Shown: positions 5,897-38,710 of the stretch, piece after piece
Layout of the letters: every line of letters begins with the position of its first letter
Position numbering within the stretch: position 1 is the first letter of the stretch
Assembly: GCF_007747215.1 (NCBI RefSeq)
Contig: NZ_CP036273.1
Span: 6,122,322 to 6,186,321, forward strand
Length of the DNA: 64,000 bases
Source of the DNA: Urbifossiella limnaea
GTDB lineage: Bacteria; Planctomycetota; Planctomycetia; Gemmatales; Gemmataceae
Direction: 5' to 3'
Notes under the pieces: model-generated
The model's database searches: none
What the model saw: only the letters and a program-made list of their open reading frames with translations
Told to the model about the DNA's origin: nothing
Made by a program: the position numbers and the translations under genes

Positions 5897-7045
5897 ATGA
5901 CGCCACCCGTCCGGAGCCGCGCCGTGCCCGCCGACCCGTTCGCCGCCGCCGTCCGCTCCGGCCCCGACGGCGTCGTCCGGGCCGTCGACCTGCTCCTGGC
6001 GGAAGCCGACCGCCACGGCGCAAGCGACGTTCACTTTCAGCCGACGGCCCGCGACCTGACCGTGCGCGTCCGCGTCGACGGCGTGCTGCGACCGCTCACG
6101 GCGCTGCCGCGCGAGGTCGCCCCGAACGTCGTCGCCCGGCTCAAGGTCATGGCCGAGTTGCTGACGTACCGCACCGACATCCCGCAGGAGGGGAGCACGC
6201 GCCCGGCCGGCGGCGGCCCCGACCGCCGCGTCAGCACCTTCCCCACCGTCCACGGCGAGTGCGCCGTCGTCCGCGTGTTCGACCCGTCGGCCGGCCTCCT
6301 CGACCTGGACCAGCTCGGCCTCCCCGCCGACGTGCGCGGCGGGCTCGACGCCCTGCTACGGACGCGCTCCGGGGCGGTGTTCCTGACCGGCCCGAGCGGC
6401 AGCGGCAAGACCACCACCATTTACGCCTGCCTGCGGAAGCTGATCGCCGACGGCCCCGGCCGGCACGTCGTGACGATCGAAGACCCGGTGGAACGGGCGC
6501 TCGACGGCGTGACGCAGTCGCAGGCCCGGCCCGGGAGCGAGTTCGACTTCGCCCGCGGCCTGCGGAGCCTGCTGCGGCAGGACCCCGAGGTCATCATGGT
6601 CGGCGAGGTGCGCGACCGCGAGACGGCGGCCGTGGCGATCGAGGCGGCGCTGACCGGACACCTGCTGTTCACGACGCTGCACGCCGGGTCCGCATGCGGC
6701 GTCGTGGGGCGGCTGCTGGAGATGGGCGTCGAACCGTATCTGCTGACGGCGGGGGTGCGCGGCATCCTGAACCAGCGGCTGCTGCGGCGGGCTTGCGGCG
6801 GGTGCGGCGGCTGCGGTTGTGGCGACTGCGGCGGCACCGGATACCGCGGTCGCCTCCTGGTGGCGGAGTTACTGACGCCGTCGCCCGAGTTCCGGCAGGC
6901 GGTGCTGCGCCGCGCCGACGAGGACGCCCTGGAGGCGGTGGCCCGCGGCGTCGGCTGGCGGACGATCCGGGAAGCCGCGGACGCGGCGGTTGCCGACGGG
7001 CGGACGACCGCGGCGGAGGTCGAGCGCGTACTGGGGCTGGCGTGA
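5897..7045 (+). CDS. GspE/PilB-type secretion ATPase
   Basis: This 382-residue cytoplasmic ATPase powers a type II secretion or type IV pilus-like machine. Seen in the sequence are an N2-type domain (SDVHFQPT, RVRVDGVLR), Walker A GPSGSGKTT at about 166-174, Asp box IEDPVE, Walker B PEVIMVGEVRD and His box GHLLFTTLHAG. A cysteine cluster (RRACGGCGGCGCGDCGG) near residues 295-315 is the zinc-binding loop typical of GspE/PilB. It is much shorter than usual (about 500-560) because it lacks the N1E domain that docks to GspL/PilM. The start at 5897 matches the beginning of similarity; farther upstream in-frame codons would overlap the divergent DUF1501 gene. It is first of six same-strand genes. 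Confidence 0.92.
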   Translation: MTPPVRSRAVPADPFAAAVRSGPDGVVRAVDLLLAEADRHGASDVHFQPTARDLTVRVRVDGVLRPLTALPREVAPNVVARLKVMAELLTYRTDIPQEGSTRPAGGGPDRRVSTFPTVHGECAVVRVFDPSAGLLDLDQLGLPADVRGGLDALLRTRSGAVFLTGPSGSGKTTTIYACLRKLIADGPGRHVVTIEDPVERALDGVTQSQARPGSEFDFARGLRSLLRQDPEVIMVGEVRDRETAAVAIEAALTGHLLFTTLHAGSACGVVGRLLEMGVEPYLLTAGVRGILNQRLLRRACGGCGGCGCGDCGGTGYRGRLLVAELLTPSPEFRQAVLRRADEDALEAVARGVGWRTIREAADAAVADGRTTAAEVERVLGLA

Positions 7046-7118
7046 AATGCCCGGCCGCGGGTGGCGTTGTAGGAGTTACCCGCTAGGCCCCTCGTTCCCC
7101 GACCGTAAGAAGGTGCGG

Positions 7119-8159
7119 ATGACGGCCGACGAGCTGACCGCGCTGAACGACCAGATCGCCGCCCTCGCCCGCGCCGGCCTCCCCCTCGACCAGGGGCTCG
7201 ACAGCCTGGCCCGCGACATGGCCCGCGGTCGGCTGCGCGCCGTCACCGCGGCGCTGGCCGCCGATCTGCGTGCCGGTCACACCCTCCCCGAAGCCCTGGC
7301 CCGGCAAGAAGGCCGCGTCCCGGCGTACTACGCCAACCTCGTCCTCGCCGGAGTGCAGACCGGCCGCCTCCCCGAGGTGCTGGCGACGCTCACCACCTAC
7401 GCCCGGTCCGTGACCGCCACCCGCACCATCGTCACCGAGGCGCTGTTCTACCCGGCCGTGGTGCTGGCCCTCGGCGTGGCCCTGTTCGCTACCCTCGCCG
7501 GCTTCGTGCTGCCGCAGTTCGACCAGATTTTCCGGGAGTTCGGCCTCCAGCTGCCGTGGATCACCGAGGCCGTGCTCGTGTTCGGCCGGCACCCAATCGA
7601 GCTGGTCGTGGTCCCCGCGGCGGTGCTGTTCGTGGGGCCGCTGCTGGCGCGGGCGGTGCTGCGCCGGTCGGCGCGCGGCCGGCGGTTGTGGGCGCGGGCG
7701 GTGTACCTCGTACCGATGGTGGGCAGCCTGATCCGCACGGCCCGGCTGGCAGCGTTCACCGAGTTGCTCGGGCTGCTGGTCGAGTACGGGGTGCCGCTGC
7801 CGTCCGCGGTGCGCCTCGCCGGCGGCGCGTCCAGCGACCCGAACATGGCGGCCGAGGCGGAGACGGTCGAGGCCCGACTGGCGGAAGGGACGGGGCTGGC
7901 GGAGGCGTTCCGCGGGCGCGGCCTGGTGCCCGACTGGGTGGCGTGGCTGGCCGCGGCGGGGGAGCGGCGCGGCGGGCTGGGGCCGGCGCTGCGCGAGGCG
8001 GCGGCGGTGTACCGGCGGCAGGTGGACGCGCGGGCGGCGGTGCTGCGGAGCGTGCTGCCGCCGTTCGTGGTGGTGGTCACGGCCGGCTCGCTGACGGCGT
8101 GCTTCGTGGTGGCGATCATGGCCCCGCTGTTGAAGCTGCTCGAAGGGCTGAGCAAGTAG
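7119..8159 (+). CDS. GspF/PilC-type inner membrane protein (first copy)
   Basis: A 346-residue inner-membrane platform protein of the GspF/PilC family, which anchors the secretion ATPase to the pseudopilus assembly site. Two T2SSF domains are visible: an N-terminal one with LARAGLPLDQGLDSLARD, and a second from about residue 200 with LLVEYGVPLPSAVRLAGG. Three hydrophobic segments lie near residues 110-135, 160-185 and 310-340, the last being the family's C-terminal helix (PPFVVVVTAGSLTACFVVAIMAPLLKLL). The ATG at 7119 gives MTADELTALNDQIAALARAG, matching the family's N-terminus; upstream in-frame sequence reads poorly. It lies 73 bp after the ATPase and 72 bp before a second GspF gene. Confidence 0.9.
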   Translation: MTADELTALNDQIAALARAGLPLDQGLDSLARDMARGRLRAVTAALAADLRAGHTLPEALARQEGRVPAYYANLVLAGVQTGRLPEVLATLTTYARSVTATRTIVTEALFYPAVVLALGVALFATLAGFVLPQFDQIFREFGLQLPWITEAVLVFGRHPIELVVVPAAVLFVGPLLARAVLRRSARGRRLWARAVYLVPMVGSLIRTARLAAFTELLGLLVEYGVPLPSAVRLAGGASSDPNMAAEAETVEARLAEGTGLAEAFRGRGLVPDWVAWLAAAGERRGGLGPALREAAAVYRRQVDARAAVLRSVLPPFVVVVTAGSLTACFVVAIMAPLLKLLEGLSK

Positions 8160-10350: not shown

Positions 10351-10754
10351 CGGGCGTGAGAGGCCGCCGGGCGGTGGCGTCGGTGTGGGCGCTAGCGGTG
10401 GTGGCGGTGGTATCCGCACTGACTCTGGCGGCGACGGCCCGGTTGGTGGCGTCGCGGAAGCACGCCGACGCGCACCGCAACCGGCTCCAGACCGAGTGGC
10501 TGGCGCGGGCCGGGTACGAACTGGCCGTGGACCGGTTGCTGACCGCCGAGGGCTACACGGGCGAGAAGGCGACGCCGCTGCCGTGGGGCGAGGTGACGGT
10601 GGCGGTGCAGCCGGACGCGGGCGCGAAGGGCGTGTACCGGGTGGTGGTGGAGGCTCGCTACCCGGCGGGGGAGCGGGCGGTGGTGTCGCGGCTGGAGCGT
10701 AGCGTGCGTCGCACCCACGACCCCGACGGCGTGCGGGTAGCGCCGGTGCGTTGA
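10347..10754 (+). CDS. Small GspK/minor-pseudopilin-like membrane protein
   Basis: A 135-residue protein starting at the ATG overlapping the previous stop (ATGA). The N-terminus MTGVRGRRAVASVWALAVVAVVSALTLAATARLV is a basic tail plus a long hydrophobic helix without the Glu at +5. This recalls GspK and PilX-like minor pseudopilins, which lack that residue. Next comes HRNRLQTEWLARAGYELAVDRLL, matching the region after the helix in GspK (QAxxLAxAGxExA). It is far shorter than true GspK (about 330), so the large globular domain is missing. It ends 4 bp before a convergent gene. Confidence 0.72.
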   Translation: MTGVRGRRAVASVWALAVVAVVSALTLAATARLVASRKHADAHRNRLQTEWLARAGYELAVDRLLTAEGYTGEKATPLPWGEVTVAVQPDAGAKGVYRVVVEARYPAGERAVVSRLERSVRRTHDPDGVRVAPVR

Positions 10755-10758
10755 CCTG

Positions 10759-11634
10759 CTACTTTCCCGCTAGCGACGCCCGCCACTTCTCGTACTCGGC
10801 CACGACCGCCGCCCGCGAACAGCGCTCGCGGTACACCACCCGGGCGCGGAAGCCGTACTCGGTCATCACGTCGTACTTCGGCACCAGCAGCTGGAAGTCC
10901 CACGCCGGGTTCGAGGTGTCGGCCTCCTTGTTGAACCCGCCGCCGCTCGGCGAGTGCGCGAAGCGGATGCCGGCGGTGCGGTCGAACATCACCATCAGGA
11001 CGTGGCCGCGGAACAGCCCGTAGAAGAACGGTTCCCGGAACCGCAGCGGCGATAGGCTCTTGTACAGGCAGTCGCGGTGCCCGTCGGCGAACGTGGCGTC
11101 GAAGGCGTCGGCGGCGTGGCGGACGGTGCTGAGCGCGTTGTGCGCCGGCGTGCAGTGCTGCGCCCACCCGGTCGGGCTGCGGAAGTACAAGCTCTTGTCG
11201 TCCGGGGCGTTGATGTAGGAGGCCCAAAACAGGCCGATGTAGCCGCGGCGGAAGACGTGCTGGTGCGCCTTGCACCGGAACGTGATGTCGATGGCGTCGG
11301 GCTCGACGAAGGTGAACCGCGTCCAGCTCTCGAGGTGGAACGTGGGGGTGGGCGGCTGGTGCAGTTCGGCGGCGCGGTCGGAGAGGCGGCGGAGCCGCAT
11401 CGGGGCGTTGCGCGGCTCGAAGAACAGCGTGTTCTGGTCGGGCGGGTCGAGGGTCTGCCCGTCGAAGATGTGTTCGAGGTTGAACCCGGCGACGGCGGGG
11501 ACGAACAGGTTGGTGGGCTCGGTGCGGTGGGTGAGGGACCAGAGGCCGTTGTACCCGGCCCGGTGCTCGCCCGCCGCGGCGTTGTCGCCGACGACGGCGG
11601 TCAGGTCGCCGACGGTGAACCGCTCGCTCGCCAT
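10759..11634 (-). CDS. Conserved hypothetical protein
   Basis: A 291-residue protein of unknown function. The start at 11634 (MASERFTVGDLTAVVGDN) was preferred to the in-frame ATG 36 bp upstream, whose extra residues (MWAPGGPATLRR) look non-coding. There is no signal peptide or membrane helix. The sequence is rich in aromatic residues and predicted strands (SLTHRTEPTNLFVPAVAGFNLEHIFDG, FHLESWTRFTFVEPDAIDITFRCKAHQ), suggesting a beta-sandwich or sugar-binding-like fold; this is a guess from composition. It converges on the secretion operon with a 4-bp gap and is downstream of hemF on the same strand. I do not recognise the family. Confidence 0.72.
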   Translation of the reverse strand: MASERFTVGDLTAVVGDNAAAGEHRAGYNGLWSLTHRTEPTNLFVPAVAGFNLEHIFDGQTLDPPDQNTLFFEPRNAPMRLRRLSDRAAELHQPPTPTFHLESWTRFTFVEPDAIDITFRCKAHQHVFRRGYIGLFWASYINAPDDKSLYFRSPTGWAQHCTPAHNALSTVRHAADAFDATFADGHRDCLYKSLSPLRFREPFFYGLFRGHVLMVMFDRTAGIRFAHSPSGGGFNKEADTSNPAWDFQLLVPKYDVMTEYGFRARVVYRERCSRAAVVAEYEKWRASLAGK

Positions 11635-11689
11635 GCGCCGGAGTGTAGCGGGTCCGCCGGGTGCCCACAAACAGATTCCCGACGCCCGC

Positions 11690-12568
11690 TCAGCCCGCCG
11701 CCCAGTCGTGCGGCTTCAGCCACTCCTCGGTCAGCGCCGCCTCGCGGGAGCCCGGCGCGGGGCGGTAGTCGTACACGTACCGCACCACCGGCGGCAGGCT
11801 CATCAGGATGCTCTCCGTCCGGCCGTCCGTCTTCAGGCCGAAGACCGTGCCGCGGTCGTACACCAGGTTGAACTCCACGTACCGCCCACGCCGGTACTCC
11901 TGGAACGCCCGCTCGTCCGCCGTCCACGCCGCCCCCTTGCGGCGCTCGACGATCGGCACGTACGACGCCACGAAAGTGTCGGCCGCGTCGCGCACGAACG
12001 CCCACGACTCGGGCGTCGCCGGCATGTAGTCGAAGAAGATGCCGCCGACGCCGCGCGGCTCGTTGCGGTGCTTGAGGAAGAAGTAGTCGTCGCACTCGCG
12101 CTTCATCGCCGCGTAGTCGGCCGCGCCGGGGTGGCGGTCGCACGCGGCCTTCCACGTGCGGTGGAAGTGGACCACGTCCTCACGCACCGGGTAGTACGGC
12201 GTCAGGTCGGCGCCGCCGCCGAACCACGCCTTCGACCCGTGCGTCAAGTAGCGGAAGTTCGCGTGAACTGTCGGCACGTGCGGGCTGCGCGGGTGGAGTA
12301 CCAGCGACACGCCGGTGGCCGTGAACGTGAGGCCGTCGCCGGGCATCTGCCTGGAGAACTCGGGGGTCAACTCGCCGAACACCTCTGAGAAGTTGACGCC
12401 ACCCTTCTCGATGACACCCGCGTCGGCGAGGACGCGGGTGCGGCCGCCGCCGCCGCCGGGGCGCTGCCACGTGTCCTCGCGAAACGTGCCGCCACCGTCG
12501 ACACGCTCGAGTGCGGCGCAAATGCGGTCCTGGAGCCCGCGGAAGAAGGTGACGGCCTCGGTGTGCAT
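11690..12568 (-). CDS. hemF: Oxygen-dependent coproporphyrinogen III oxidase
   Basis: HemF (292 residues, the usual length being about 300) decarboxylates coproporphyrinogen III to protoporphyrinogen IX using O2, in cytoplasmic heme synthesis. Hallmarks are the glycine-rich GGGGGRTRVLADAGVIEKGGVNFSEVFGEL (residues about 38-67), the HANFRYLTHGSKAWFGGGADLTPYY segment (about 100-128), a DYFFLKHRNEPRGVGGIFFDY region and the C-terminal YVEFNLVYDRGTVFGLKTDGRTESILMSLPP. The ATG at 12568 starts at the family's N-terminus. It lies 54 bp downstream of the acyltransferase operon on the same strand, with a weak hairpin between them, so it could be read through or have its own promoter. Use of O2 fits an aerobic organism. 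Confidence 0.95.
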   Translation of the reverse strand: MHTEAVTFFRGLQDRICAALERVDGGGTFREDTWQRPGGGGGRTRVLADAGVIEKGGVNFSEVFGELTPEFSRQMPGDGLTFTATGVSLVLHPRSPHVPTVHANFRYLTHGSKAWFGGGADLTPYYPVREDVVHFHRTWKAACDRHPGAADYAAMKRECDDYFFLKHRNEPRGVGGIFFDYMPATPESWAFVRDAADTFVASYVPIVERRKGAAWTADERAFQEYRRGRYVEFNLVYDRGTVFGLKTDGRTESILMSLPPVVRYVYDYRPAPGSREAALTEEWLKPHDWAAG

Positions 12569-12583
12569 GCGGCCCCCAGCGTG

Positions 12584-12606
12584 AAACGGGACAACGGGGT
12601 CCGTTT
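12584..12606. terminator. Weak hairpin between SGNH-1 and hemF
   Basis: AAACGGGAC (12584-12592) pairs with GTCCGTTT (12599-12606) apart from one bulged base, around a short loop. On the minus strand it lies just after the SGNH-1 stop and before hemF. It could be a partial terminator or simply a chance palindrome. Confidence 0.35.
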
Positions 12607-12622
12607 TACGACGTTGCGGGCC

Positions 12623-13684
12623 TCAAGGCCGCACCGCCGCGCCGAGTTGCCGGCTGAACCGCTCCGCGGCCGGCCGCAGCGGGTGGTGACCGTCGGCGAA
12701 ATCGGCCTCCGCGTAGTCGCCGTCCGGCTCGATCAGCGGCACGCCGACGCCGGCCAGGAACGCCCGCGCCGCCGGCTCCGCGCCCGCCGCCAGCGCGCGG
12801 AACGACGGCCCCTCGGGCGTGCGGAACAGCACCACGCGAACACCGCGCGCCCGGCACCGCTCCAGCAGGTCGCGGAACACGCGGTCGGACGCCGCGCCGA
12901 TCCTGTAGTCGGACAGCAGCCAGGCGTATTGGTCGCGTACGCGCCGGATCGATTGCTCGCGGTCCGGCTCGGAAATCGACTCGTGCGGGTGCGGGGAGAA
13001 GCCGTAGGGGTCGAGCATGTCCCACTGGTGCGTCAGCCGGTCGCGCCACGGCAGCCAGTCGGGCCGGGCGTGGTTCATCAGCACCAGCCGCAGCGAGTGC
13101 CACGAGTTCGCGCGCGCCGCGGCCCAGCGGCGGTGCAGCAGAGCGGCGTCGGCGGTGAACGGTTCGAGGCGGCGCACGTCGGCCAACGACAGGCGGGCCG
13201 TCATGCCCTTCAGTTGCTCCTCGGCGGGCCCGTCGTGGGCGAACGCGGCGGGGAAGAACTCCACGAGCAGCACGTCGGGGACGATCCCCTCCGCGGCGAG
13301 ACGCTCGACGGTGAGGTGAATGCGGAGCGGACCGGCGGCGGACTGGCCGAAGTTGTAGGCGAGCGCGTCGCGGAGGCCCATCGCCGCGGGGCTGACGCCC
13401 ATCTGCGTCCGCGAGCTGCCGACGGCGAGTACGAGCGGCCGGCCGGGGTGGGCGGCACGCAGGGCACGGAGTTGGCGGAGGCGGTGGCCGTACTCGGGGT
13501 CGCGCCATTCGGGCTTCACCGTCTCGACGGCGCCGGCGAGGCCGATCACGGCAACGACGAACATGACGGCGCCGGAGTAAAGCGCGGCGCGGGCGCGGCT
13601 GTGGGGCCGGCTTCTTACCGGCCGTGCATGGAGGCCGGTTGGAAACCGGCCCCACGCGAGCGGCCGCACCAGTTGCGGCGTCAC
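12623..13684 (-). CDS. SGNH-type acyltransferase/hydrolase-like protein 1
   Basis: A 353-residue membrane-anchored SGNH-like protein, last of four paralogs behind an MBOAT gene. It has one N-terminal membrane helix (AALYSGAVMFVVAVIGLAGAVETV), then the conserved DPEYGHRLRQLRALRAAHPGRPLVLAVGSSRT, where the Ser near residue 88 is the presumed nucleophile, followed by YNFGQSAAGPLRIHL (Asn/Gly blocks) and a C-terminal ADFADGHHPLRP with the Asp-x-x-His dyad. The GTG start overlaps the stop of SGNH-2 (GTGA), like the coupled starts of its neighbours. Residues about 10-28, before the helix, are encoded by a hairpin repeat (13601-13655); if the GTG is wrong, the next start is ATG at 13564. By analogy with AlgJ/AlgX it may transfer acyl groups to an exported polymer. 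Confidence 0.83.
   Translation of the reverse strand: MTPQLVRPLAWGRFPTGLHARPVRSRPHSRARAALYSGAVMFVVAVIGLAGAVETVKPEWRDPEYGHRLRQLRALRAAHPGRPLVLAVGSSRTQMGVSPAAMGLRDALAYNFGQSAAGPLRIHLTVERLAAEGIVPDVLLVEFFPAAFAHDGPAEEQLKGMTARLSLADVRRLEPFTADAALLHRRWAAARANSWHSLRLVLMNHARPDWLPWRDRLTHQWDMLDPYGFSPHPHESISEPDREQSIRRVRDQYAWLLSDYRIGAASDRVFRDLLERCRARGVRVVLFRTPEGPSFRALAAGAEPAARAFLAGVGVPLIEPDGDYAEADFADGHHPLRPAAERFSRQLGAAVRP
13601..13655. repeat. Hairpin repeat inside the 5' end of SGNH-1
   Basis: GTGGGGCCGG (13601-13610) pairs with CCGGCCCCAC (13646-13655). Inside it ACCGGCC (13617-13623) pairs with GGCCGGT (13633-13639). The two-stem structure is 55 bp long and lies entirely in the predicted N-terminal cytoplasmic tail of SGNH-1. 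It looks like an inserted intergenic-type repeat that has become coding. Confidence 0.65.
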
Positions 13685-14805
13685 TTCCGCTCCCCCGCCA
13701 GCAGGGCGGCGGCGACCGGGCCGAACTTCCGCGTGAACTCGCCGGCCCCGTGCTTCGACAGGTGGAAGCCGTCCACCAGCAGATCGTCCGGCATCCAGGT
13801 CCGCGCGTCGATCAGCGGCAGGTCCAACTCGCGGCGCAGCGTCGCCAAGTACTCCTGCGCCCGCCGCTCGGCGTCGGCCGGCATCCAGCCGCGGAACTCC
13901 GTCGCCTCCGGGAAGTACGCCAGGGCCACCTTCGAGCCCTTCGCCCGCGCCAGTGCCACCGACTCGCGTAGCGCCCGGTCGGCGAGCGGGTGGACCGAAT
14001 ACCCCTCGAACTGGCCGCGGTAGATCGGCTCGCAGTGGGCCAGCCGCTTCACGCGTTCGTCGGGCCGCGGCGGGTGTTCGTCGAGGCCCGGCAGCCAGCC
14101 CCAGCCGTCGAGGTTCCCCCACGCCAGGTCCATCCGCCGGTCCCACGGCTGCCACCGCGGGGCGATCTGGGCGAGCAGCCGGTGTCGCGTTTCGTACAGC
14201 GGGAAGAAGCGGTCGCGCCGCATCTTCGCTTCCGTTTCTTCCGGCTTCGGGAAGTAGGCCTGCACGAGCGGCTCGTCGGCCGGGAACAGGCGGGCGTGGT
14301 CGATGCGGTCGGGCTCGTGGAACGGGCCGTCCTCGCGGAGGAACGGCGGCCAGAACTCCAGCACCACCACGTCGGGGCGGAAGCCGTCGGCGTAGGCGCG
14401 GCGCAGCGCCAGTAGCTCGATGACCGGCCCGCCGCCGACGAGGCCCATGTTGAACAGCAGCGGGTCGTCGGCGCCGCCGGGGCGCGACTGTTCCCACGCG
14501 GCAGGGCTCAGGCCCATGCACGTCCGCGAGCTGCCGACCACGAGCACGAGCGGCCGACCGGGGTGCTCGGCGAGCCGGGCACGGAGCGCCGAGGCGCGGC
14601 GGCCGTACTCCGGGTCGCGCAGTTGCGGGAACGCCGTCTCCATCAGCACTAGCGCGGCCGCGTGGATCACCAGCACGCCGACGACGCCGACGAGCAGCGC
14701 CGACGCCGCGGACCGGCGGCGGCGGAACACCGACTCGGCGCGCCGCGGCCGGGGTGGCGCCAGCGCCGGCAGGCGGAACAGCTTCAGCAGCGTGGTGCGC
14801 GTCAT
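13681..14805 (-). CDS. SGNH-type acyltransferase/hydrolase-like protein 2
   Basis: A 374-residue paralog of its neighbours. A basic tail (PPRPRRAESVFRRRR) precedes one membrane helix (SAASALLVGVVGVLVIHAAALVLM). Then come QLRDPEYGRRASALRARLAEHPGRPLVLVVGSSRT (Ser near residue 90), FNMGLVGGGPVIELLALRRAY and the C-terminal LIDARTWMPDDLLVDGFHLSKHG, where DGFH supplies the Asp and His. LIDARTW is shared with SGNH-3 and SGNH-4. The ATG at 14805 overlaps the stop of SGNH-3 (ATGA). The family resembles the periplasmic domain of AlgJ/AlgX and other MBOAT partners; hydrolase activity is an alternative. Specificity unknown. Confidence 0.85.
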   Translation of the reverse strand: MTRTTLLKLFRLPALAPPRPRRAESVFRRRRSAASALLVGVVGVLVIHAAALVLMETAFPQLRDPEYGRRASALRARLAEHPGRPLVLVVGSSRTCMGLSPAAWEQSRPGGADDPLLFNMGLVGGGPVIELLALRRAYADGFRPDVVVLEFWPPFLREDGPFHEPDRIDHARLFPADEPLVQAYFPKPEETEAKMRRDRFFPLYETRHRLLAQIAPRWQPWDRRMDLAWGNLDGWGWLPGLDEHPPRPDERVKRLAHCEPIYRGQFEGYSVHPLADRALRESVALARAKGSKVALAYFPEATEFRGWMPADAERRAQEYLATLRRELDLPLIDARTWMPDDLLVDGFHLSKHGAGEFTRKFGPVAAALLAGERK

Positions 14806-15953
14806 CGGGCGCCCCCGAGCCACGGGGCGAGGGCGTCGCGGGCCAGCACGTCGGTGAACCGGTCGGCGCCGCGGCCGGTCAGGTGGTGGCCGTCCATCGT
14901 TTCCTCGACCGTCACCCACCGCCGGGCGTCGATCAGCGGCGCGCCGAACTCGGCCGACAGGTTCGCCAGCAGCGTGTCGAGTTGCCTCAGCCCCTCGGCG
15001 TCGTACCACGTCTCCCAGCCGCCGCACTCGGGCATCAGCGCCAGCGCCGGGCGGATGCCGCGGGCGCGGCACTGCTCCAGCGTGTCGCGGACGGCGCTCG
15101 CGCCGCAGCCGGTGGGGCGGTAGCCGGGGAAGTACGCGGCGTACTGGAGGTGCGTCAGGCGGGTGAGCGCGGCTCGATCCTTCGGCGTACAGACGTCCGG
15201 CGGGCGACAGAACCCGAAGGCGTCGGGCTCGTGGCCGCCGTTGAGCCGGCGGTTGTCCATCAGCATCCACGGGGCGTAGCGGTCGAGCAGCAGGAAGCGC
15301 TGCTCGTAGACGGACGCGAGGAGCCCGCGCGGGCCGTGCGTCGGCGGCGCGTCCGCGGGGAAGCCCATGCCGCGCACGACGGGGAGTTCCGCGGGCCGGA
15401 GCCGCGTCGGCAGCAGCCAGCGCGCCTCGGGCGTGACCGCGTGCTGGCCCGCGAGAAACACCGGGTGTACCTCGATGAGCGCGAAGTCGGCCCGCACGCC
15501 GGCGTCGGCGAGGCGGCGGAGGTAGACGGCGTTCGTGACCGGGCCGGCGCCGGCCTGGCCGAAGTTGAACACGCTCACGGGCCGGCCGAGGTGCTGCGTC
15601 AGGGCGTCGGTGGCACGGCGAGCGTTGACGGCGTTCAGCGTGCGTGAGCTGCCGACGAGTAAGACCGTCGTGGGGCGGTCGGCGGCGGCGAAGAATGCGG
15701 GGTGCGTGCGGAGCAGCGCGAGCTTGTCGAAGTAGAGCGGGTCGCGGAGCGGCGACACTTCCGTGTTTACGGCAACGCCGAGGGCTACCTGCGCGGCCAG
15801 GGCGACGACGGCGCCGGTGACGACGGCGACGGCGGCCCGGCGGGCGCGGTCGCGGCGGCCCGGCCGGGCGGGCACGACGACGACCGCCACCCGGCCGACG
15901 CGCGGCCGCGGCGCGGTCGTCTTAAGGCGGCGAAGGATCGTGGTAGGCGTCAT
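14802..15953 (-). CDS. SGNH-type acyltransferase/hydrolase-like protein 3
   Basis: A 383-residue paralog. After a long basic tail, a membrane helix (AAVAVVTGAVVALAAQVALGVAV) leads to PLRDPLYFDKLALLRTHPAFFAAADRPTTVLLVGSSRT (Ser near residue 100). FNFGQAGAGPVTNAVYLRRL and LIEVHPVFLAGQ follow, and the protein ends with LIDARRWVTVEETMDGHHLTGRGADRF containing the DGHH dyad. The ATG at 15953 overlaps the stop of SGNH-4 (ATGA). The helix-anchored C-terminal domain should be periplasmic, where it could receive acyl groups moved across the membrane by the MBOAT protein. Same family and caveats as its neighbours, from which it is clearly diverged. Confidence 0.85.
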   Translation of the reverse strand: MTPTTILRRLKTTAPRPRVGRVAVVVVPARPGRRDRARRAAVAVVTGAVVALAAQVALGVAVNTEVSPLRDPLYFDKLALLRTHPAFFAAADRPTTVLLVGSSRTLNAVNARRATDALTQHLGRPVSVFNFGQAGAGPVTNAVYLRRLADAGVRADFALIEVHPVFLAGQHAVTPEARWLLPTRLRPAELPVVRGMGFPADAPPTHGPRGLLASVYEQRFLLLDRYAPWMLMDNRRLNGGHEPDAFGFCRPPDVCTPKDRAALTRLTHLQYAAYFPGYRPTGCGASAVRDTLEQCRARGIRPALALMPECGGWETWYDAEGLRQLDTLLANLSAEFGAPLIDARRWVTVEETMDGHHLTGRGADRFTDVLARDALAPWLGGAR

Positions 15954-17065
15954 CGGGATTCGTTCCGCCCGCGGAAGAACGGCAGCACCGCCTCGCGTAC
16001 GAGCCGGTCGGAGAACGCCTCCGCGCCGGGCCGCAGCATGTGGTGGCCGTCGGTGAACGCCGCCGCCGACAGCCAGGTCCGGGCGTCGATCAGCGGCGCG
16101 CCGTACTCGGCTTCCAACGCCGCGAGGAAGGCGTACAGCCGCTCCGTCGTCGCCGGCGGGTAGAGGGCGCGGAAGCCTTCGGACTCGGGCATCAGCACCA
16201 GCCGCACGGGCAGCTTCTGCTCGCGGCACAGTGCCAGCAGGTCGGCCAGCGCCCGCGCCCCGCCGCCGGTCGGGTGCATGTCGGCGAGAATCGCGCCGTA
16301 CTCGCCGGCCGCGCGCTTCAGGCCTTCTTCCTGCTTCTCGGGCGTCAGGTCGGTGACCACCGGCGTCGACCACCCGGCTGGGTCTTCGGTGCGGCTCCAG
16401 TCGTAGCGGAGGTGCCACGGCAGGGCGCTCGGGTGGACGCGGCCCATGATCGGGAAGCGGAGCTGGTGCCACGGCAGCGTCACGGAACGCCGCCAGTCGC
16501 GCCGCGTCTTCTCGGCGGGAAAGCCGTAGCCGACCGCGGGTTCGACTTCGCCGTGCTTCAACCGGTCGCCGAACAGGAATCGCGCCTCCAGCGGCCCGTC
16601 GTCGAGCGCGGCGATGCTCGGCGGGAGCACCTCGACCAGTAGCAGGTCGGGCCGCAGGCCGGCGTCGAGCAGCCGGCGGAGGTACGTCAGGTGCGTGACC
16701 GGGCCGGACGCGGGGATGCCGTAGTTGAAGGCCATCGCGTCGCCGCCGAGCTCGGCGGCCAGCTGCTCGCGGATGCGGGCCGAATAGAAGCCGTAGCCGG
16801 TGCGCGAGGTGCCGAGCATGACGACGCTCGGCGCCCCGGGGTGCGCCGCGAACTGCTTCCGCAGGCGGACTTCCTTGTCGGCGTAGCCGGGGTCGCGGAC
16901 GAACAGCGACAGCTCCGCGGCGACGCCGAGGCCGAGTTGCAGCAGCACCGCGAGCGCGGCGCCCACGCCGACGGCGACCGCGGCGCGCCGGCGGCGCGGC
17001 ACGCGCCGCCGCGGCGGGGGCGCGAGCCGGGGTAGGAGAGCGGCGAATCGGGGGGTGAGCTTCAA
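15950..17065 (-). CDS. SGNH-type acyltransferase/hydrolase-like protein 4
   Basis: A 371-residue paralog, the first SGNH gene after the MBOAT gene (9-bp gap). It has a basic N-terminus (RLAPPPRRRVPRRRR), a membrane helix (AAVAVGVGAALAVLLQLGLGVAAEL), FVRDPGYADKEVRLRKQFAAHPGAPSVVMLGTSRT (Ser near residue 84), FNYGIPASGPVTHLTYLRRLLDAGLRPDLLLVEVLPP and a C-terminal LIDARTWLSAAAFTDGHHMLRPGA with the catalytic-type DGHH. Its stop overlaps the next start. The position directly after the MBOAT gene makes it the best candidate for the primary partner. Confidence 0.86.
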   Translation of the reverse strand: MKLTPRFAALLPRLAPPPRRRVPRRRRAAVAVGVGAALAVLLQLGLGVAAELSLFVRDPGYADKEVRLRKQFAAHPGAPSVVMLGTSRTGYGFYSARIREQLAAELGGDAMAFNYGIPASGPVTHLTYLRRLLDAGLRPDLLLVEVLPPSIAALDDGPLEARFLFGDRLKHGEVEPAVGYGFPAEKTRRDWRRSVTLPWHQLRFPIMGRVHPSALPWHLRYDWSRTEDPAGWSTPVVTDLTPEKQEEGLKRAAGEYGAILADMHPTGGGARALADLLALCREQKLPVRLVLMPESEGFRALYPPATTERLYAFLAALEAEYGAPLIDARTWLSAAAFTDGHHMLRPGAEAFSDRLVREAVLPFFRGRNESR

Positions 17066-17074
17066 GGGCCGGGT

Positions 17075-18646
17075 TCAGAAGTTGAAGTAGATGAAGCTGC
17101 TCCCGCTATCCGGCGCCAGCACCATCGCGGCGCACAGGCACACCGCGTAGCCGGCGCCCAGCACCGGGGCCGGCAGCCGGTCGTACACCCGCTGCCACCA
17201 CCCGCGCGACACCAGCAGGTGGCACAGCAGCACGAACGCCGCCGTGTACCACAGGCTCCGGTTGTGCAGCGGCAGCGGCAGCCCCATCTGCAGGCTGAAC
17301 ATCTTGCCGAACATCGCCGTCGCCCGCTCCAGCCCCGTAATCACGTACTCCGGCCGCTTCGGGTCGGGGTAGAAGTCCGGCTGGAACAGCACCCAGCACA
17401 GGCTCACGCTCAGGAACGTCAGCCCCACCCGGCCGCAGGTGCCGAGCGTCGTCTTCAGCGCCGCGTCGAGCGCCGGCCGGGCCTGCGCGAACGCCGCGAA
17501 CTGGCGGTGAATGATCAGCAGCAGCCCGTGCGCCACGCCCCACAGCACGAAGCTCCACGCGGCCCCGTGCCACAGGCCGCCGAGCGTCATCGTGATCATC
17601 AGGTTTCGGTTCGTGGCGAAGCTGCTACCGCGGCTGCCGCCGAGCGGGATGAACAGGTAGTCGCGCAGCCACGTCGACAGGCTGATGTGCCAGCGGCGCC
17701 AGAACTCCGACACGTTCGCCGCGAGGTACGGCATGTTAAAATTGTTCGTCAGCTTGTACCCGAGCAGGTGGGCCAGGCCCACGGCCATGTCGGAGTAGCC
17801 GCTGAAGTCGGCGTAGATGCGGAGGCTGTACGCCAGCACCGCCATCCACACCGCGCCGGTGTTGTACTTGTCCGGGTCGGCGAAGATCGGGTCGCAGAAC
17901 ACCGCCATTCGGTCGGCGATGGCCATCTTCTTGAACGCGCCCATCAGCAGGAACTGCACGCCCACCTGCATCCGCACCCAGTTCCACCGCTTCGGCCGCC
18001 GCGTCTGCTGGAGGAAGTCGCCGGCGCGGACGATCGGGCCGGACACGAGGTGCGGCAGGAACAGGATGAACAGCAGGAACCGCGGCAGGCTCGTCTCGGC
18101 CTTGATCTTCCGGCGGTACACGTCGACGGCGTAGCTCACCGCCTCGAACGTGTAGAAGCTGATGCCGAACGGCACGAACAGCGCCAGTGCCCGCATGTCG
18201 TACTTCGCGTACCCGGGGTCGCGGCCGGCGCTCACCAGCAGGTTGTGCAGCTCGTTCAGGAAGAACCCGCGGTACTTGAAGTAGCACAGGATCGACAGGT
18301 TCATGCCGATGCTGGTGATCATGATCGCGCGGCGCAGCTTCTGGCGCTCGGTGGCGTCCATGAGCCGGCCGAACACGTAGTCGGCGAGCGTGGTGGCGGT
18401 GACGAGGAACGCGAGTTCGGCGCTCCACGCGGCGTAAAAGTGGAAGCTGGCGGCGACCAGCACCCAGATGCGCGTCATCTGCCACTTGCGCGGGATGCTC
18501 CAGTAGACGGCGAGCACCGCGGCGAAGAACAGCAGGAAGTTCGACGTGTGGAAGAACGGTTCCGGCAGCAGCTCGGCGAGCTTCTGGAAGTACGGCCAGT
18601 CCGTCTTCGGAGGGGCAGCGGCGGTGGCGAACAAGCTGAGCGGCAT
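17075..18646 (-). CDS. MBOAT O-acyltransferase (AlgI/DltB-like)
   Basis: A 523-residue polytopic membrane protein of the MBOAT family, which moves acyl (often acetyl) groups from a cytoplasmic donor across the membrane for O-acylation of exported polysaccharides or teichoic acids. AlgI-type features are NFLLFFAAVLAVYWSIPRKWQ near the start, YFKYRGFF, PFGISFYTFEAVSYAVDVYR, LFLPHLVSGPIVRAGDFLQQ, YSDMAVGLAHLLGY, NFNMPYLAANVSEFWRRWHISLSTWLRDYLFIPLGGSR, and the invariant catalytic His in GGLWHGAAWSFVLWG near residue 357. It heads a tightly packed operon with four SGNH genes. Divergent purM lies 119 bp away, so the operon promoter should be in 18647-18765. Confidence 0.95.
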   Translation of the reverse strand: MPLSLFATAAAPPKTDWPYFQKLAELLPEPFFHTSNFLLFFAAVLAVYWSIPRKWQMTRIWVLVAASFHFYAAWSAELAFLVTATTLADYVFGRLMDATERQKLRRAIMITSIGMNLSILCYFKYRGFFLNELHNLLVSAGRDPGYAKYDMRALALFVPFGISFYTFEAVSYAVDVYRRKIKAETSLPRFLLFILFLPHLVSGPIVRAGDFLQQTRRPKRWNWVRMQVGVQFLLMGAFKKMAIADRMAVFCDPIFADPDKYNTGAVWMAVLAYSLRIYADFSGYSDMAVGLAHLLGYKLTNNFNMPYLAANVSEFWRRWHISLSTWLRDYLFIPLGGSRGSSFATNRNLMITMTLGGLWHGAAWSFVLWGVAHGLLLIIHRQFAAFAQARPALDAALKTTLGTCGRVGLTFLSVSLCWVLFQPDFYPDPKRPEYVITGLERATAMFGKMFSLQMGLPLPLHNRSLWYTAAFVLLCHLLVSRGWWQRVYDRLPAPVLGAGYAVCLCAAMVLAPDSGSSFIYFNF

Positions 18647-18765
18647 TCGGCCGTCCCGTCCGTGGGAGGGGCGTAGGTCGCGGACTATAGCGAGGGGGGG
18701 AAAACGCGGTCAACCCCGTATCCTAACCGCCTCACACGACACCGCCGCCGCCCCGGGACGACCAG

Positions 18766-19866
18766 ATGGCCGAGCAGTGGGACTACAAGAAGGCCGGCCT
18801 CGACCTCGGCAAGTACGAGGACACGATCCACCGCATCCAGTCGCACCTCGCCCGCACCCAGGACCGGACGCGCGTGCTGCCGCCGCCGTTCCCACCGCGG
18901 AAGGGTGGCAAGGGCGTCGGCGGCTTCGCCAGCCTGTTCGACCTCGACCCCAGCGGCCTGTTCAGCAAGAAGTACGAGCACCCGGTCCTCGTCACCTGCA
19001 CCGACGGCGTCGGCAGCAAGCTCAAGGTCGCGGCGCTGGCCCGGAAGTTCGACACCGTCGGCATCGACCTCGTCGGCATGTCGGTGAACGACCTGATCTG
19101 CACCGGCGGCGAACCGCTCGTGTTCCTCGACTACATCGCCATGCCGGCCGACGACCCGCCGATGACCGAGCAACTCGTGAAGGGCATCGCCGACGGGTGC
19201 GTCGAGGCCGAGTGCTCGCTCGTCGGCGGGGAGACGGCCATCCTGCCGGACTTCTACCAGCCCGGCGACTTCGACATGGCCGGGTTCTGCACCGGCGTCG
19301 TGGACAAGCCCGAGGTGATCGACGGCAGCCGCATCGAGGTCGGCGACGCGGTCATCGGCCTGGCCTCCAGCGGGCTCCACTCGAACGGGTACAGCCTGGT
19401 CCGCAAGATCGTCTTCGACGCCGCCGGCCTGTCGGTGACGGACCACGTCCCCGAGTTGGGCAAGACCGTGGGCGAGGAGTTGCTGACGCCGACGCGGCTG
19501 TACGTGAAGCCGGTGCGGCGGGTGCTGGCGCACTACCCGGTGAAGAAGAAAGGCGTGATCCACGGGCTTGCTAACATCACCGGCGGCGGCCTGCCGGACA
19601 ACCTGGGCCGCATCATGCCGCCGGGCTGCCGGGTGCAGGTGAAGGCGGGGTCGTGGCCGGTGCCGCCGGTGTTCGGGTGGTTGCAACGGCTCGGCAACGT
19701 GGCCGACGCGGAGATGCGGCGGGTGTTCAACGGCGGGGTGGGCTTCTGCGTGGTGGCGGCGCCGTTCTTCGCCGCGAGCATCGTGGAGCAGTTCGAGAAG
19801 CTCGGCGTGCCGGCGTGGGTGATCGGCGAGGTCGTGGCGGGCGAGCCGGGCGTGGACGTGGGGTAG
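18766..19866 (+). CDS. purM: Phosphoribosylformylglycinamidine cyclo-ligase
   Basis: PurM (366 residues, slightly longer than the usual 345) converts FGAM to aminoimidazole ribonucleotide with ATP, the fifth step of purine synthesis, in the cytoplasm. Key stretches are CTDGVGSKLKVA near residues 77-88, GIDLVGMSVNDLICTGGEPLVFLDYIA, AECSLVGGETAILPDFY, DAVIGLASSGLHSNGYSLVRKI, HGLANITGGGLPDNLGRIMP and RVFNGGVGFCVVA. A proline/lysine-rich loop (PPPFPPRKGGKGVGGF) near residue 45 is longer than usual. Divergent from the MBOAT operon and convergent with the DUF1559 gene, so it is probably transcribed alone. Confidence 0.96.
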   Translation: MAEQWDYKKAGLDLGKYEDTIHRIQSHLARTQDRTRVLPPPFPPRKGGKGVGGFASLFDLDPSGLFSKKYEHPVLVTCTDGVGSKLKVAALARKFDTVGIDLVGMSVNDLICTGGEPLVFLDYIAMPADDPPMTEQLVKGIADGCVEAECSLVGGETAILPDFYQPGDFDMAGFCTGVVDKPEVIDGSRIEVGDAVIGLASSGLHSNGYSLVRKIVFDAAGLSVTDHVPELGKTVGEELLTPTRLYVKPVRRVLAHYPVKKKGVIHGLANITGGGLPDNLGRIMPPGCRVQVKAGSWPVPPVFGWLQRLGNVADAEMRRVFNGGVGFCVVAAPFFAASIVEQFEKLGVPAWVIGEVVAGEPGVDVG

Positions 19867-27902: not shown

Positions 27903-30900
27903 TCAGGTGCTTCTCAACCGCTCCAGCGCCAGCGCCGCGCGCCGCTCGAACAGCGTGGCCCCCTGCGCCGCCGCGACCGCCCGCGCCGCCTCCAGCCCCG
28001 CGGCGGCGCCGGCCGTGTCCCCCTCGTCGGCGAGAAAGAGGGCCTCGCGCCGCAGCAGTTCGCTCTCGAACGCCCGCTGGCCGAGGCGGTCGTTGTGCTC
28101 GCGGCCGCGCGCCAGCGCCGCCCGCGCCTCGTCGCGGCTTCCCGCGCGCCACAGCGCCTCGGCCAGCTCGCCGAGGAAGCACGTGTGGAGAATCCCCGAT
28201 CCGATGGCGTCGCACCCGGCGACGGCGTCGCGGAGGCACGGCACCGCCTCGGCCGGCTTCCCCTCCTGCGCCAACAGCATCCCGCGGACGCCGAGCCCGA
28301 GCGCCACCCAGAAGGCGTACGACTCCTCGGTCGAGACCGCGAGTACCTCTTCACATAGCGCCCGGCTCTCCGCCGTCCAGCCGCCGAGGGCGTAGAAGAA
28401 CGCCACGTGCCAGCGCGTCGCCGTCCGCAGGAACTTGTCGTTGAGCTCGTCGGCGAGGTCGAGCGCCCGTTGCAGCCAGCGGCGCCCCTCGTCCGGCCGG
28501 CCGAGCACCAGGTGCCCCCACGCCACGTAGCACGTCATCAGCGGGCCGCAGTTCTGCCCGTGCGCCGCGGCGTGCGGCCGGCTCGGCTCGATCTGGTAAA
28601 GGCCGACGCCGCGCGTGGACAGGTGCAGCGACCGCTCGAAGTTCCCCGCCCACCACTCGCACGAGCCGCGCGCCCAGTGCGCCTCGGTCTTGAAGCTGTC
28701 GTCGCGGTCCGCGGCCAGGGCCAGAATCTCCTGGCTCGCCGCCACCGCCGCGTCGGACTGGCCGCGGATGAAGCGGACGGCCCACGAGATCATCAGGACG
28801 TGGAACAGCGGCGACGTCGGGCCGAGCCGCTCGCACAGGGCGCGGGCGCGGGCGATCTGCTCCTCCACCTCCGGGGCCGCGTACCCGCGCACCGCGAGGA
28901 AGCTCGCCGCCAACGGCAGCCGGAACTGCAACTCCTCGCCGTCGCGCTCCGCGCCCTCGGGCCGCGTCGCCAGGAGCGCCAACCCACGGCTCAAATGCCG
29001 GATCGCTTCCGGGTACGCCGACCGCCCCCGCGCGCGCTCGCCGGCCGTCCGCCAGTACCCGACCGACCGCGCCGTCTCGCCGGCTTCCGACAAGTGGTGC
29101 GCCAGCAGTTCCGGCTGCGTCCCGACCACCTCGGGGAACGACGCCTCGAGCGCCCCCGCGACGCGCCGGTGGAGCTGCTGCCGCGTCTTCTTCACGAGGG
29201 ACTGGTACGCCGCGTCCTGGATCAGGGCGTGCTTGAACGTGTACGTCGCCCGCGGGATCGTGCCCTTCGGGAACAGCAGCCCGGCGTCCACCAGCTTCCG
29301 CAGCTCGGCCCGCAACACGGCCTCGTCGCGGTCGGTCGCGGCGCGGATCAGGTCGTACCCGAAGGTGCGGCCGATCGTCGCCCCGAGTTGCACCACCTCC
29401 CGGTCGCTGGCCATGCGGTCGAGCCGCGCCAGCAGCAAGTCTTGAAGGCTCGCCGGGATCGCCGCCTGAAGCCCGTCCTTCCCACCCTCGGCGACGAGCC
29501 GCGTGAACTCCTCGACGAACAGCGGCACGCCGTCGGTGCGCTCGGCGATCTTTTCCACCACGTCGGCCGGCACGTCGGGACCGGCCTGGGCGCGGATCAG
29601 CTCGCCGACCTGCGCCCGCGTCAGGCGGTTGAGCGCCACCTGCGTCTGAACGGCCTTCCCCTTCCACGGCGGGTCGTACTCGGGGCGGAAGGTGAAGACG
29701 CCGAGCACCCGCGCCTCGCCGCCGTCCTCCACGAACCGCGCCAGGAGCGCCTCGGTGGACGGGTCGATCCAGTGCAGGTCTTCGACGACGAACAGCACCG
29801 GCGCCGCCTCGGCGCGGGCCGCGAGCCAGCCGAGGAGCGCGTCGAGGGTGCGCTCGCGCTGGCGGTCGGGGCTGAGGGCGAGCGCCGGCAGGCGGGCGCC
29901 GGCGGGCACCGACAGCATCGCGGCGAACAGGGCCAACTCCTCGGCGTCGTGGACGCCGTCGCCGCGGAGGCGCGACACGAGGAGGTCGAGGCGGCGGGCC
30001 GGGTCCGGTTCGCGGCCGAGGCCGTAGGCGCGGTCGAAGTAGTCGGTGACGGGGTAGAACGGGCTGCCGGCGTGGTACGGCGAGCAGTACCACTCGACGG
30101 CCGCGGCCGGGCCGCCGGCCTGTGTCGAGTCGGCCACGTGCGAGTCGCCGCGGCCGAGGGCGAAGTCCTTCAGCGTGCGCACGAGCCGCGACTTGCCGAG
30201 GCCGGGGTCGGCGACCAGCAGCAGCACGTTCCGCACGCCGTCGGCCGCCTGCTGCCACCGCTCGCGGAGGAGTTCGACCTCGCGGTCGCGGCCGACGAGC
30301 GGGGTCAGCCGGGCCGGGTCGGCGGCGTCCACCCGGGAGCGCGTGTCGCGCTCGGCGGTGACGCGGAACACCGGCACCGCGGCGGTCGCGCCGCGCGGCT
30401 TCACCTCGCCCGCGGGCTCGGTGTCGAAGTAGTCCGCGGTCAGCCGGTGCGTGCCGTCGGTGAGCGTGACGCCCGCCGCGCCCGCGGCCGTCACCGCGGC
30501 GACCGCGGAGGTCACGTCGCCGACGACGGTCGGCGTCGCGCCCGGCGTTTCGGTCACGACGGCGGTACCGGTGCCGACCGCGGCCGCGGCGCCGGGGGCC
30601 TTCGCGCACGCGGCCAGCGCCGCGCGAACGGCCTGGCGCGGGGCGTCCTCGTGGGCGATCGGGTAGCCGAACACGGCGAGTAGCCCGCTGCCGCCGGCCT
30701 GGAGCGTGAGGCCGCCGTGGTCGGTCGTCGCGGCGGCGCAGGCGGCCTGGAACGCGGCGAGCACCTCCGTCGGGTCGTCGTCCTCACCGGTCGCCGGCTC
30801 GCAGGCGAACTGCACGAGGGTGACGGGCCGGCGCTCGGTGCGCGGGCCGCGCGGCGCCGTCGGTGTCGTGGGGCGAACCGGCGCCGCGGCGGGCGCCGCG

Positions 30901-31937
30901 TCCAGGGATGGGAGCAGGCCGACGGCCCGGCGGAGCGCCTCGGCGAAGTCCGCGGCCGTCGTGAATCGGTCGGCGGGGAGCTTGGCCAGCCCCTTCAGAC
31001 ACGCCGCCTCCAGCGCCGCGGGCAGGTCCGGCCGCAGCTGCCGCGGCGGCGCCGGGTCGTCCTCGCGCACCTGCCGGATAACCTCGCCGGTGGTCGCGCC
31101 GCGGAACGGCGCCCGGCCGCACAACACGCTGTACAGCGTCGCCGCGAGGCCGTACACGTCGGTGCGGCCGTCCGGCCGGTGGGCGCGGCCGGCGGCCTGC
31201 TCCGGGCTCATGTACGCCGGCGTGCCCGACACCACGCCGCGCTCCGCCGCCGCGTCCTGGTCCGAGAGGGCGAGCCCGAAGTCGACCAGCACCGGCCGGC
31301 GGCCGTCGCCGAAGACGACGTTCGACGGCTTCAGGTCGCGGTGGACGATGCTGCGGGCGTGGGCGTGGGCGAGGGCGTCGGCCACCTCGGCGGTGACGCG
31401 CGCGGCTTCGACCGGCGTCGGCGGAGTGGTTCGTGCCCACTCGGCGAGGCTCGGGCCGGGCAGCAACTCGGACACGACGAAGCAGTGCCCGCCGGCCACG
31501 GCCACGTCGTACACCGCGACGATGCCGGGGTGCCGCAGTTGGGCGAGGGCACGGGCCTCGCGCAGCAGCTGGTCGGGGTTGCCGGAGCGCGTGCGGGTGG
31601 CCTTGATGGCGACGCGGCGACTCAGGCGGCGGTCGAACGCGTCATACACCGTGCCGAACCCGCCCTGCCCCAGCGCCTTCTCCAGCGAGAAGCGGTCGCC
31701 GAAGGCGGCGTCCAGGTCGTCGGCGAGGTCGGGGGATCGGGGCGCCGACTCGCTGCCGGTGTAGTCGAGGGTGGCCCCCGCGGCGCCCTCCGGCGCGCCG
31801 GTCAGGGAATTGACGGGGGTCTGGTTGTCGGCGGCCGGGGGCGGGTGGATCGGGGGCGGCGGGACCACGGGGGCAGCAACTGTTGGAGGGCATCCGGTCG
31901 ATGCGTTGAGCCTAGTCGCCGGCCGCCGTGGTTCCAA
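27903..31937 (-). CDS. Ser/Thr kinase - cyclase-like - AAA ATPase - TPR regulator
   Basis: A 1344-residue multidomain signalling protein. A Pro-rich N-terminus (1-75) precedes a Hanks-type kinase (about 82-340): GQGGFGTVY, VAIKATR, VHRDLKPSNVVF near residue 199, DFGLA, GTPAYMSPEQ. Residues about 365-540 resemble a class III cyclase homology domain (GGLTLQAGGSGLLAVFGYP, QAVRAALAAC) but the metal-binding Asp at the first strand is missing (VTLVQFACEP), so it is probably not a cyclase. An AAA_16-type ATPase follows (LVGRDREVELL, Walker A ADPGLGKSR near 576-584, LFVVEDLHWIDPSTEALL), then about 400 residues of TPR-like helices. This architecture matches the bacterial kinase/cyclase/AAA/TPR family that acts as a stress or nutrient sensor; its targets are unknown. 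Confidence 0.9.
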   Translation of the reverse strand: MEPRRPATRLNASTGCPPTVAAPVVPPPPIHPPPAADNQTPVNSLTGAPEGAAGATLDYTGSESAPRSPDLADDLDAAFGDRFSLEKALGQGGFGTVYDAFDRRLSRRVAIKATRTRSGNPDQLLREARALAQLRHPGIVAVYDVAVAGGHCFVVSELLPGPSLAEWARTTPPTPVEAARVTAEVADALAHAHARSIVHRDLKPSNVVFGDGRRPVLVDFGLALSDQDAAAERGVVSGTPAYMSPEQAAGRAHRPDGRTDVYGLAATLYSVLCGRAPFRGATTGEVIRQVREDDPAPPRQLRPDLPAALEAACLKGLAKLPADRFTTAADFAEALRRAVGLLPSLDAAPAAAPVRPTTPTAPRGPRTERRPVTLVQFACEPATGEDDDPTEVLAAFQAACAAATTDHGGLTLQAGGSGLLAVFGYPIAHEDAPRQAVRAALAACAKAPGAAAAVGTGTAVVTETPGATPTVVGDVTSAVAAVTAAGAAGVTLTDGTHRLTADYFDTEPAGEVKPRGATAAVPVFRVTAERDTRSRVDAADPARLTPLVGRDREVELLRERWQQAADGVRNVLLLVADPGLGKSRLVRTLKDFALGRGDSHVADSTQAGGPAAAVEWYCSPYHAGSPFYPVTDYFDRAYGLGREPDPARRLDLLVSRLRGDGVHDAEELALFAAMLSVPAGARLPALALSPDRQRERTLDALLGWLAARAEAAPVLFVVEDLHWIDPSTEALLARFVEDGGEARVLGVFTFRPEYDPPWKGKAVQTQVALNRLTRAQVGELIRAQAGPDVPADVVEKIAERTDGVPLFVEEFTRLVAEGGKDGLQAAIPASLQDLLLARLDRMASDREVVQLGATIGRTFGYDLIRAATDRDEAVLRAELRKLVDAGLLFPKGTIPRATYTFKHALIQDAAYQSLVKKTRQQLHRRVAGALEASFPEVVGTQPELLAHHLSEAGETARSVGYWRTAGERARGRSAYPEAIRHLSRGLALLATRPEGAERDGEELQFRLPLAASFLAVRGYAAPEVEEQIARARALCERLGPTSPLFHVLMISWAVRFIRGQSDAAVAASQEILALAADRDDSFKTEAHWARGSCEWWAGNFERSLHLSTRGVGLYQIEPSRPHAAAHGQNCGPLMTCYVAWGHLVLGRPDEGRRWLQRALDLADELNDKFLRTATRWHVAFFYALGGWTAESRALCEEVLAVSTEESYAFWVALGLGVRGMLLAQEGKPAEAVPCLRDAVAGCDAIGSGILHTCFLGELAEALWRAGSRDEARAALARGREHNDRLGQRAFESELLRREALFLADEGDTAGAAAGLEAARAVAAAQGATLFERRAALALERLRST

Positions 31938-37335: not shown

Positions 37336-37451
37336 CGCCCCCTCCGCTGCTGTCGCCGTACTGTGCCGCGGCGTCCGCCGGGCGGTCCGCGATTTTTCCG
37401 GAATCCGGACGTTGAGTGTACCCGAACCCCGCCGCCCGCGGGGCGCGGCGG

Positions 37452-37457
37452 TACAAT
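37452..37457 (+). promoter_or_regulatory. Possible -10 hexamer of apgM, leaderless spacing
   Basis: TACAAT ends 7 nt before the apgM ATG (37465), nearly the same distance as TAAGAT before glnE. A transcript from it would begin at about the start codon. The region 37336-37464 also has to hold the divergent sigma-factor promoter. Confidence 0.45.
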
Positions 37458-37464
37458 CCCCGGC

Positions 37465-38679: not shown

Positions 38680-38710
38680 ACCAGCACTCTGAGCACACGG
38701 GGATTCGCGC

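Follow-up and report, generated by a model that had tools for sequence, protein, structure and literature searches.

In the published MBOAT-SGNH systems that we found, each MBOAT (membrane O-acyltransferase) works with one or two SGNH partners. Passages of one recent account describe FXYXXF as the acyl-shuttle motif of PatA and DltX, report that PatA auto-acetylates the tyrosine within it and feeds PatB, and show that a synthetic acetylated hexapeptide donates acetyl to PatB (PMC12148441). Our literature search, which covered few subscription papers, found no description of an MBOAT followed by an array of SGNH genes such as those reported here. We regard these arrays as a new variant form of MBOAT-SGNH acylation, which is itself known.

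The locus lies in a stretch of 64,000 nucleotides (hereafter the window) from the Urbifossiella limnaea genome, which comprises 7.8 Mb on a single contig. All five genes are on the minus strand: an MBOAT of 523 aa (17075-18646; PF03062, 106 bits against a cut-off of 27) is followed by S1 (15950-17065; 371 aa, TTG start), S2 (14802-15953; 383 aa), S3 (13681-14805; 374 aa) and S4 (12623-13684; 353 aa, GTG start), assigned to ortholog groups A, B, C and D, respectively. A 9-bp gap separates the MBOAT gene from S1, and the remaining junctions are 4-bp overlaps (ATGA at S1/S2 and S2/S3, GTGA at S3/S4). An earlier note, made from the letters alone, had described an MBOAT with four coupled SGNH genes, and both coordinates and junctions bear this out, as do the motifs, present as GTSRT in S1 and GSSRT in S2-S4; FNYG, FNFG and FNMG, with YNFG in S4; and DGHH in S1, S2 and S4, with the variant DGFH in S3. 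Pairwise comparison puts the identity of the four proteins at about 34-38%. In every one, the stretch from residue 27 to residue 66 includes an N-terminal hydrophobic segment; S3 has a second, weak segment at 116-134. When compared with the same-genus genome G001 by a simple Nei-Gojobori calculation, dN/dS was 0.30 for S1, 0.42 for S2, 0.27 for S3 and 0.34 for S4, alongside 0.34 for the operon MBOAT and 0.21 for purM. Purifying selection thus acts on each of the four SGNH genes. These values (0.27-0.42), together with the orthologous arrays in other genera described below, rule out an open reading frame artefact of the 73% GC window.

A sigma-70-like, promoter-like site (TTGACC-18-TATAGT; 18684-18713, minus strand) lies 37 bp before the MBOAT start and is the only such site in the interval 10500-19000, where 0.2 would be expected. 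Both hexamers and their spacing are identical in all five same-genus genomes (5/5), while the spacer and most of the intergenic stretch are poorly conserved. Three terminator-like sites were found in the same interval, all on the other strand and equal in number to chance. Among 72 loci searched, a number that includes second copies of one contig, 19 have the purM gene divergently beside the MBOAT gene. The hemF gene, 54 bp downstream on the same strand, was considered as a partner and rejected, being found in 0/72 loci, many of which have little sequence behind the array. A Pfam scan of 32 window ORFs, the operon's five included, detected no glycan-synthesis, carrier-protein, AlgF, AlgX or alginate family, and over this set the earlier statement that no polymer biosynthesis gene lies nearby holds. 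Elsewhere in the window we observed a type II secretion protein F gene (6990-8156) followed by small ORFs resembling pseudopilins by eye, a 1344-aa protein (27906-31937) in which a protein kinase domain is joined to an AAA_16 ATPase domain with a weak TPR match, and a 1311-aa ORF (35464-39396) whose residues 728-871 match sigma-70 region 2 and 4 domains, which makes it a large protein for an ECF-like sigma factor.

The operon MBOAT combines the PF03062 domain and the conserved His of bacterial MBOAT-SGNH systems with their C-terminal FXYXXF. Its sequence matched two solved structures, both of them DltB (6bug and 8jem), and the DltB equivalog TIGR04091 scored 167.8 bits, far under its cut-off of 375. 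His360, within GGLWHGAAW, is invariant across 8 aligned orthologs and is likely the catalytic His of the enzyme. The protein ends in FIYFNF (residues 518-523; 17078-17095, minus strand), which places Tyr520 at the shuttle position. FXYXXF terminates 37 of 40 MBOAT ORFs and, in a larger locus set, 75 of 78, the remaining 3 in each case being cut at contig ends. Since the motif is general to bacterial MBOATs, it backs a shuttle mechanism and does not by itself indicate service to four partners. We conclude that the MBOAT probably carries acyl groups across the membrane. The same genome contains a second MBOAT (L040:9580-12409; contig G000:C1, about 4.855 Mb), which ends in FIYFVF and has just upstream a distant SGNH-like gene with no Pfam match at E up to 0.001.

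We interpret the locus as an MBOAT-SGNH O-acylation operon of a hub type, in which one donor would serve several acceptor enzymes, and assign this reading a probability of roughly 0.6. The MBOAT would take an acyl group on the cytoplasmic side, probably acetyl from acetyl-CoA, and attach it to Tyr520 within the FIYFNF motif at the C-terminus of the same protein. The acyl-tyrosine would move to the outside, where the catalytic Ser of any of the membrane-anchored S1-S4 could pick the group up, and each SGNH protein would then acylate a separate acceptor, the acceptors most likely being hydroxyls or envelope glycans that differ from one enzyme to the next. Within this scheme, we infer the acyl donor, the loading of all four SGNH proteins, transferase rather than hydrolase activity, and the difference between acceptors.

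Among 102 genomes, 36 MBOAT matches reached at least 812 bits, the next match scoring 724, and these 36 make up what we call the orthologous clade. We counted a locus as uncut when more than 1200 bp were present behind the array, which left 27 uncut and nine cut orthologous loci. Five SGNH genes were found in 7 of the uncut loci, four in 8, three in 8, two in 3 and none in 1; two to five SGNH genes therefore follow 26 of 27 uncut orthologous MBOATs, as in Gemmata sp. IIL30 (five) and Limnoglobus roseus PX52 (three). Such arrays occur in other genera of the taxonomic family, and at least one SGNH of this type was present in 60 of the 95 genomes searched in that family. Of the 31 other MBOAT loci, 27 were uncut, and in these there was one SGNH gene in 18, including one partial match (L078), none detectable by the profile used in 5, two in 2 and three in 2. 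A phylum-wide search gave matches in 5 of 392 genomes, a weak negative because only five candidates per genome were scored. In Isosphaera sp. isolate PR.3.33 (L181/L099; genome G453), the orthologous MBOAT is not followed by an SGNH array, and the one SGNH match of the genome lies on a contig other than that of the MBOAT. These counts show that the block recurs in relatives, in support of the earlier note, but not as a fixed set of four, since the uncut orthologous loci hold anywhere from 0 to 5 SGNH genes. Homologous loci reduced to a single SGNH gene with the remaining genes unrelated, the case that note had set against its own proposal, were not seen.

A tree of 93 SGNH proteins was drawn from 32 selected loci, leaving out eight loci that repeat included contigs as well as hits shorter than 250 aa; one selected locus, L087, had no hit of sufficient length. 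The tree supported group B at 97/88 (12 rows), group C at 100/89 (22 rows) and group D at 99/97 (25 rows). Group A was weaker, at 81/57 for 21 rows and 99/98 for the 14 rows that include S1. Two or more typed genes were present in 22 arrays, and by domain coordinates all 22 kept the order A-B-C-D, related arrays in this count not being independent; in the other nine of the 31 loci, most genes were ungrouped or a single gene was present. On this tree, the four groups are older than the genera compared, and the age of the lineages and their low identity argue for different roles of the SGNH copies. Conserved differences between the groups were few: only 4 columns separated them at 85% conservation, three of these dividing A/B from C/D, so that no clear signature residues point to distinct acceptors, and we dropped such residues as proof of different acceptors.

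The content of the arrays varies within this order. The window carries A, B, C and one D, whereas the same-genus genomes G001-G003 carry two D genes; the window has no ortholog of their fourth gene, and S4 is the ortholog of the fifth gene in these sister genomes. Several arrays contain two or three D genes, some lineages lack A, B or D, and uncut arrays include the compositions CD, ACD, ABC, ABCD, ACDD and ABCDD. Of the 22 arrays tested for order, 21 contain group C or, in L045 and L092, a sister lineage of it, and the one without, L095, is cut. Beyond these 22, the tree shows no C-type gene for some uncut arrays, L051, L054 and L058 among them. This near constancy of C bears on an alternative that we consider unlikely, namely a serial relay of the kind proposed for alginate, in which the MBOAT would hand the acyl group to one or more SGNH proteins and these to a single terminal transferase, a place that C could fill. 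Parts of a study of the alginate system propose that AlgI, AlgJ and AlgX work in this way with AlgF, and report that AlgJ failed to acetylate mannuronate oligomers in vitro (PMC10641220). A chain, however, should not survive the loss of as many links as the variable compositions imply, and all members keep the triad residues. Parallel spokes around one hub are easier to square with the absence of A, B or D in some lineages than are the links of one chain.

Conservation of these residues extends through the homologs, although the sets were gathered by profile and the counts are hence biased toward conserved members: Ser87, Asp339 and His342 (S1 numbering) are present in 65/65 homologs and Asn at 114 in 60/65, and in a larger SGNH set Ser is present in 145/145, while Asp and His are found in every one of the 139 rows that have a letter at those positions. 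The six rows without one are short (112-275 aa): five are fragments at contig ends, and the sixth (L078) matches the profile in part. In S4 the corresponding residues are Ser91, Asp331 and His334, and the triad residues of S2 and S3 align with them. All four MBOAT-linked proteins accordingly combine Ser, Asp and His in sequence with an N-terminal hydrophobic segment, and at this level the loss of the triad residues from three of them, which would have spoken against a four-enzyme module, was not seen.

The structure models of S1 and S4 had mean pLDDT values of 94.6 and 93.2, respectively. Foldseek placed DltD first for both, with modest similarity (S1, E 1.1e-4 and TM by query 0.41; S4, E 6.0e-5 and TM by query 0.47), and the top eight matches of S4 were all DltD. 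In VIA comparisons, the S1 model aligned with DltD (7dxm_A) at Z 14.1, 4.6 A and 249 aligned residues, and with E. coli TesA (1ivn) at Z 15.6, 2.3 A and 167 aligned residues; plain esterases such as TesA thus equal or exceed DltD by Z. The TesA row begins with model residue 78 facing TesA residue 1, and if it is ungapped, Ser87 corresponds to TesA residue 10, which we take to be the TesA nucleophile. PatB was absent from the VIA table for S1, an absence that excludes nothing, and a sequence search of solved structures with the SGNH proteins gave no convincing relative (best E 0.18 and 0.026). Acetylxylan esterases and sialate O-acetylesterases also appear among the VIA rows for S1, showing that one fold serves both activities. 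They lend something to the idea of a mixed set, in which acyl transfer falls to one or two of the SGNH proteins and the rest act as esterases, editing or removing the acyl groups, as does the deviation of S3 at the DGFH position. We nevertheless think a mixed set improbable: anchor, triad residues and the MBOAT operon are common to all four, and we saw no mark of an esterase subset among them. It is probable that the SGNH proteins attach acyl groups to cell-surface sugars.

By profile score, the four SGNH proteins lie near DUF1574 (PF07611), an SGNH clan family for which a 2022 review, in the passages treating it, lists no known activity and no structure (PMC9487903). S1 scored 26.3, S2 23.9, S3 13.1 and S4 22.5 bits against a cut-off of 29.1, and GDSL_2 also remained under its cut-off (S1 23.2, S3 20.1 bits). 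DUF1574 matches 51 of 69 aligned SGNH members at E up to 0.001, and a match above the cut-off was found in 13 of 41 genomes scanned. Array members above the cut-off occur in G006 (51.1 bits), G011 and G017 and, within the orthologous clade, in G021 (36.3 bits with neighbours in frame). When ten relatives were scanned, two passed, four were below the cut-off and the remaining four gave nothing at E up to 0.01; the two that passed are single MBOAT partners in Phycisphaerales records (L110, 37.7 bits; L113, 32.2 bits). Neither the DltD family (PF04914) nor the PatB family (DUF459) matched any of S1-S4 at E up to 1; the fold predicted for S1 and S4 resembles that of DltD. The genome also holds a fifth, solo SGNH paralog (L041:8498-9544; G000:C1, about 4.93 Mb), which exceeds the Pfam cut-off for DUF1574 with 33.8 bits and is flanked on both sides by GFO/IDH/MocA oxidoreductases, the two MBOATs of the genome lying elsewhere.

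Redundant amplification that raises dosage, all copies sharing a single function without division of labour, would agree with the variable copy number and the repeated D genes and is very unlikely, because the copies are so dissimilar and their old, separate lineages predate the genera compared and keep their order. The hub reading draws instead on the presence of FXYXXF at every uncut MBOAT C-terminus and the auto-acetylation of the same motif in PatA, which feeds PatB; on the conserved Ser/Asp/His, the N-terminal hydrophobic segments and the first place in Foldseek of DltD, which is the SGNH protein paired with the MBOAT DltB; and on the conserved gene order, purifying selection on each gene and one conserved promoter-like site. 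Against it we count the modest DltD matches, the esterases that score as high or higher by Z, the weak support for group A, the small number of columns that separate the groups and the absence of glycan-synthesis families from the 32 ORFs scanned. A more specific form, in which one acyl-tyrosine shuttle supplies several DUF1574-like SGNH transferases that differ in acceptor, while lineages add or drop members at fixed positions around C as the core, is put forward tentatively, at somewhat less than even odds. A one-to-many hub, if correct, would for the first time assign a function to the DUF1574 group, and it would show that envelope acylation patterns can diversify without new donors. An order-conserved set of up to five SGNH genes offers a direct route to assigning DUF1574, and the arrays allow one to ask how several enzymes share one acyl donor.

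When set beside known families and systems, the window operon shares features with each. The link to DUF1574 (PF07611) lies in the matches of most aligned members and in array members elsewhere that exceed the cut-off, whereas S1-S4 themselves, at 13-26 bits, stay below 29.1. AlgI-AlgJ-AlgX-AlgF, which carries out alginate O-acetylation, likewise joins a single MBOAT to two or more SGNH-like proteins, but no AlgF, AlgX or alginate family was found among the window ORFs scanned. The earlier comparison of the SGNH proteins with AlgJ and AlgX was mistaken: a description of these proteins, in the portion available, has them circularly permuted, with DxH before Ser (PMC4148444), while the window proteins have Ser first and DxxH last, and the residue order of S1 (Ser87, then Asp339-x-x-His342) rules out membership. 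DltB-DltX-DltD, the system for D-alanylation of teichoic acid, resembles the operon in that its MBOAT is related to DltB and in that DltD came first in Foldseek for the S1 and S4 models; it differs in that the window operon has the shuttle motif fused to the MBOAT and no carrier-protein family among the ORFs scanned. PatA-PatB, which O-acetylates Gram-negative peptidoglycan, shares an MBOAT with a C-terminal FXYXXF tyrosine shuttle and a separate extracytoplasmic SGNH transferase, with no DltX microprotein in the sections of the source that describe it (PMC12148441). PatB belongs to DUF459 according to passages of the 2022 review (PMC9487903), a family without a match among S1-S4 at E up to 1, and PatA serves one SGNH protein where the window operon provides four.
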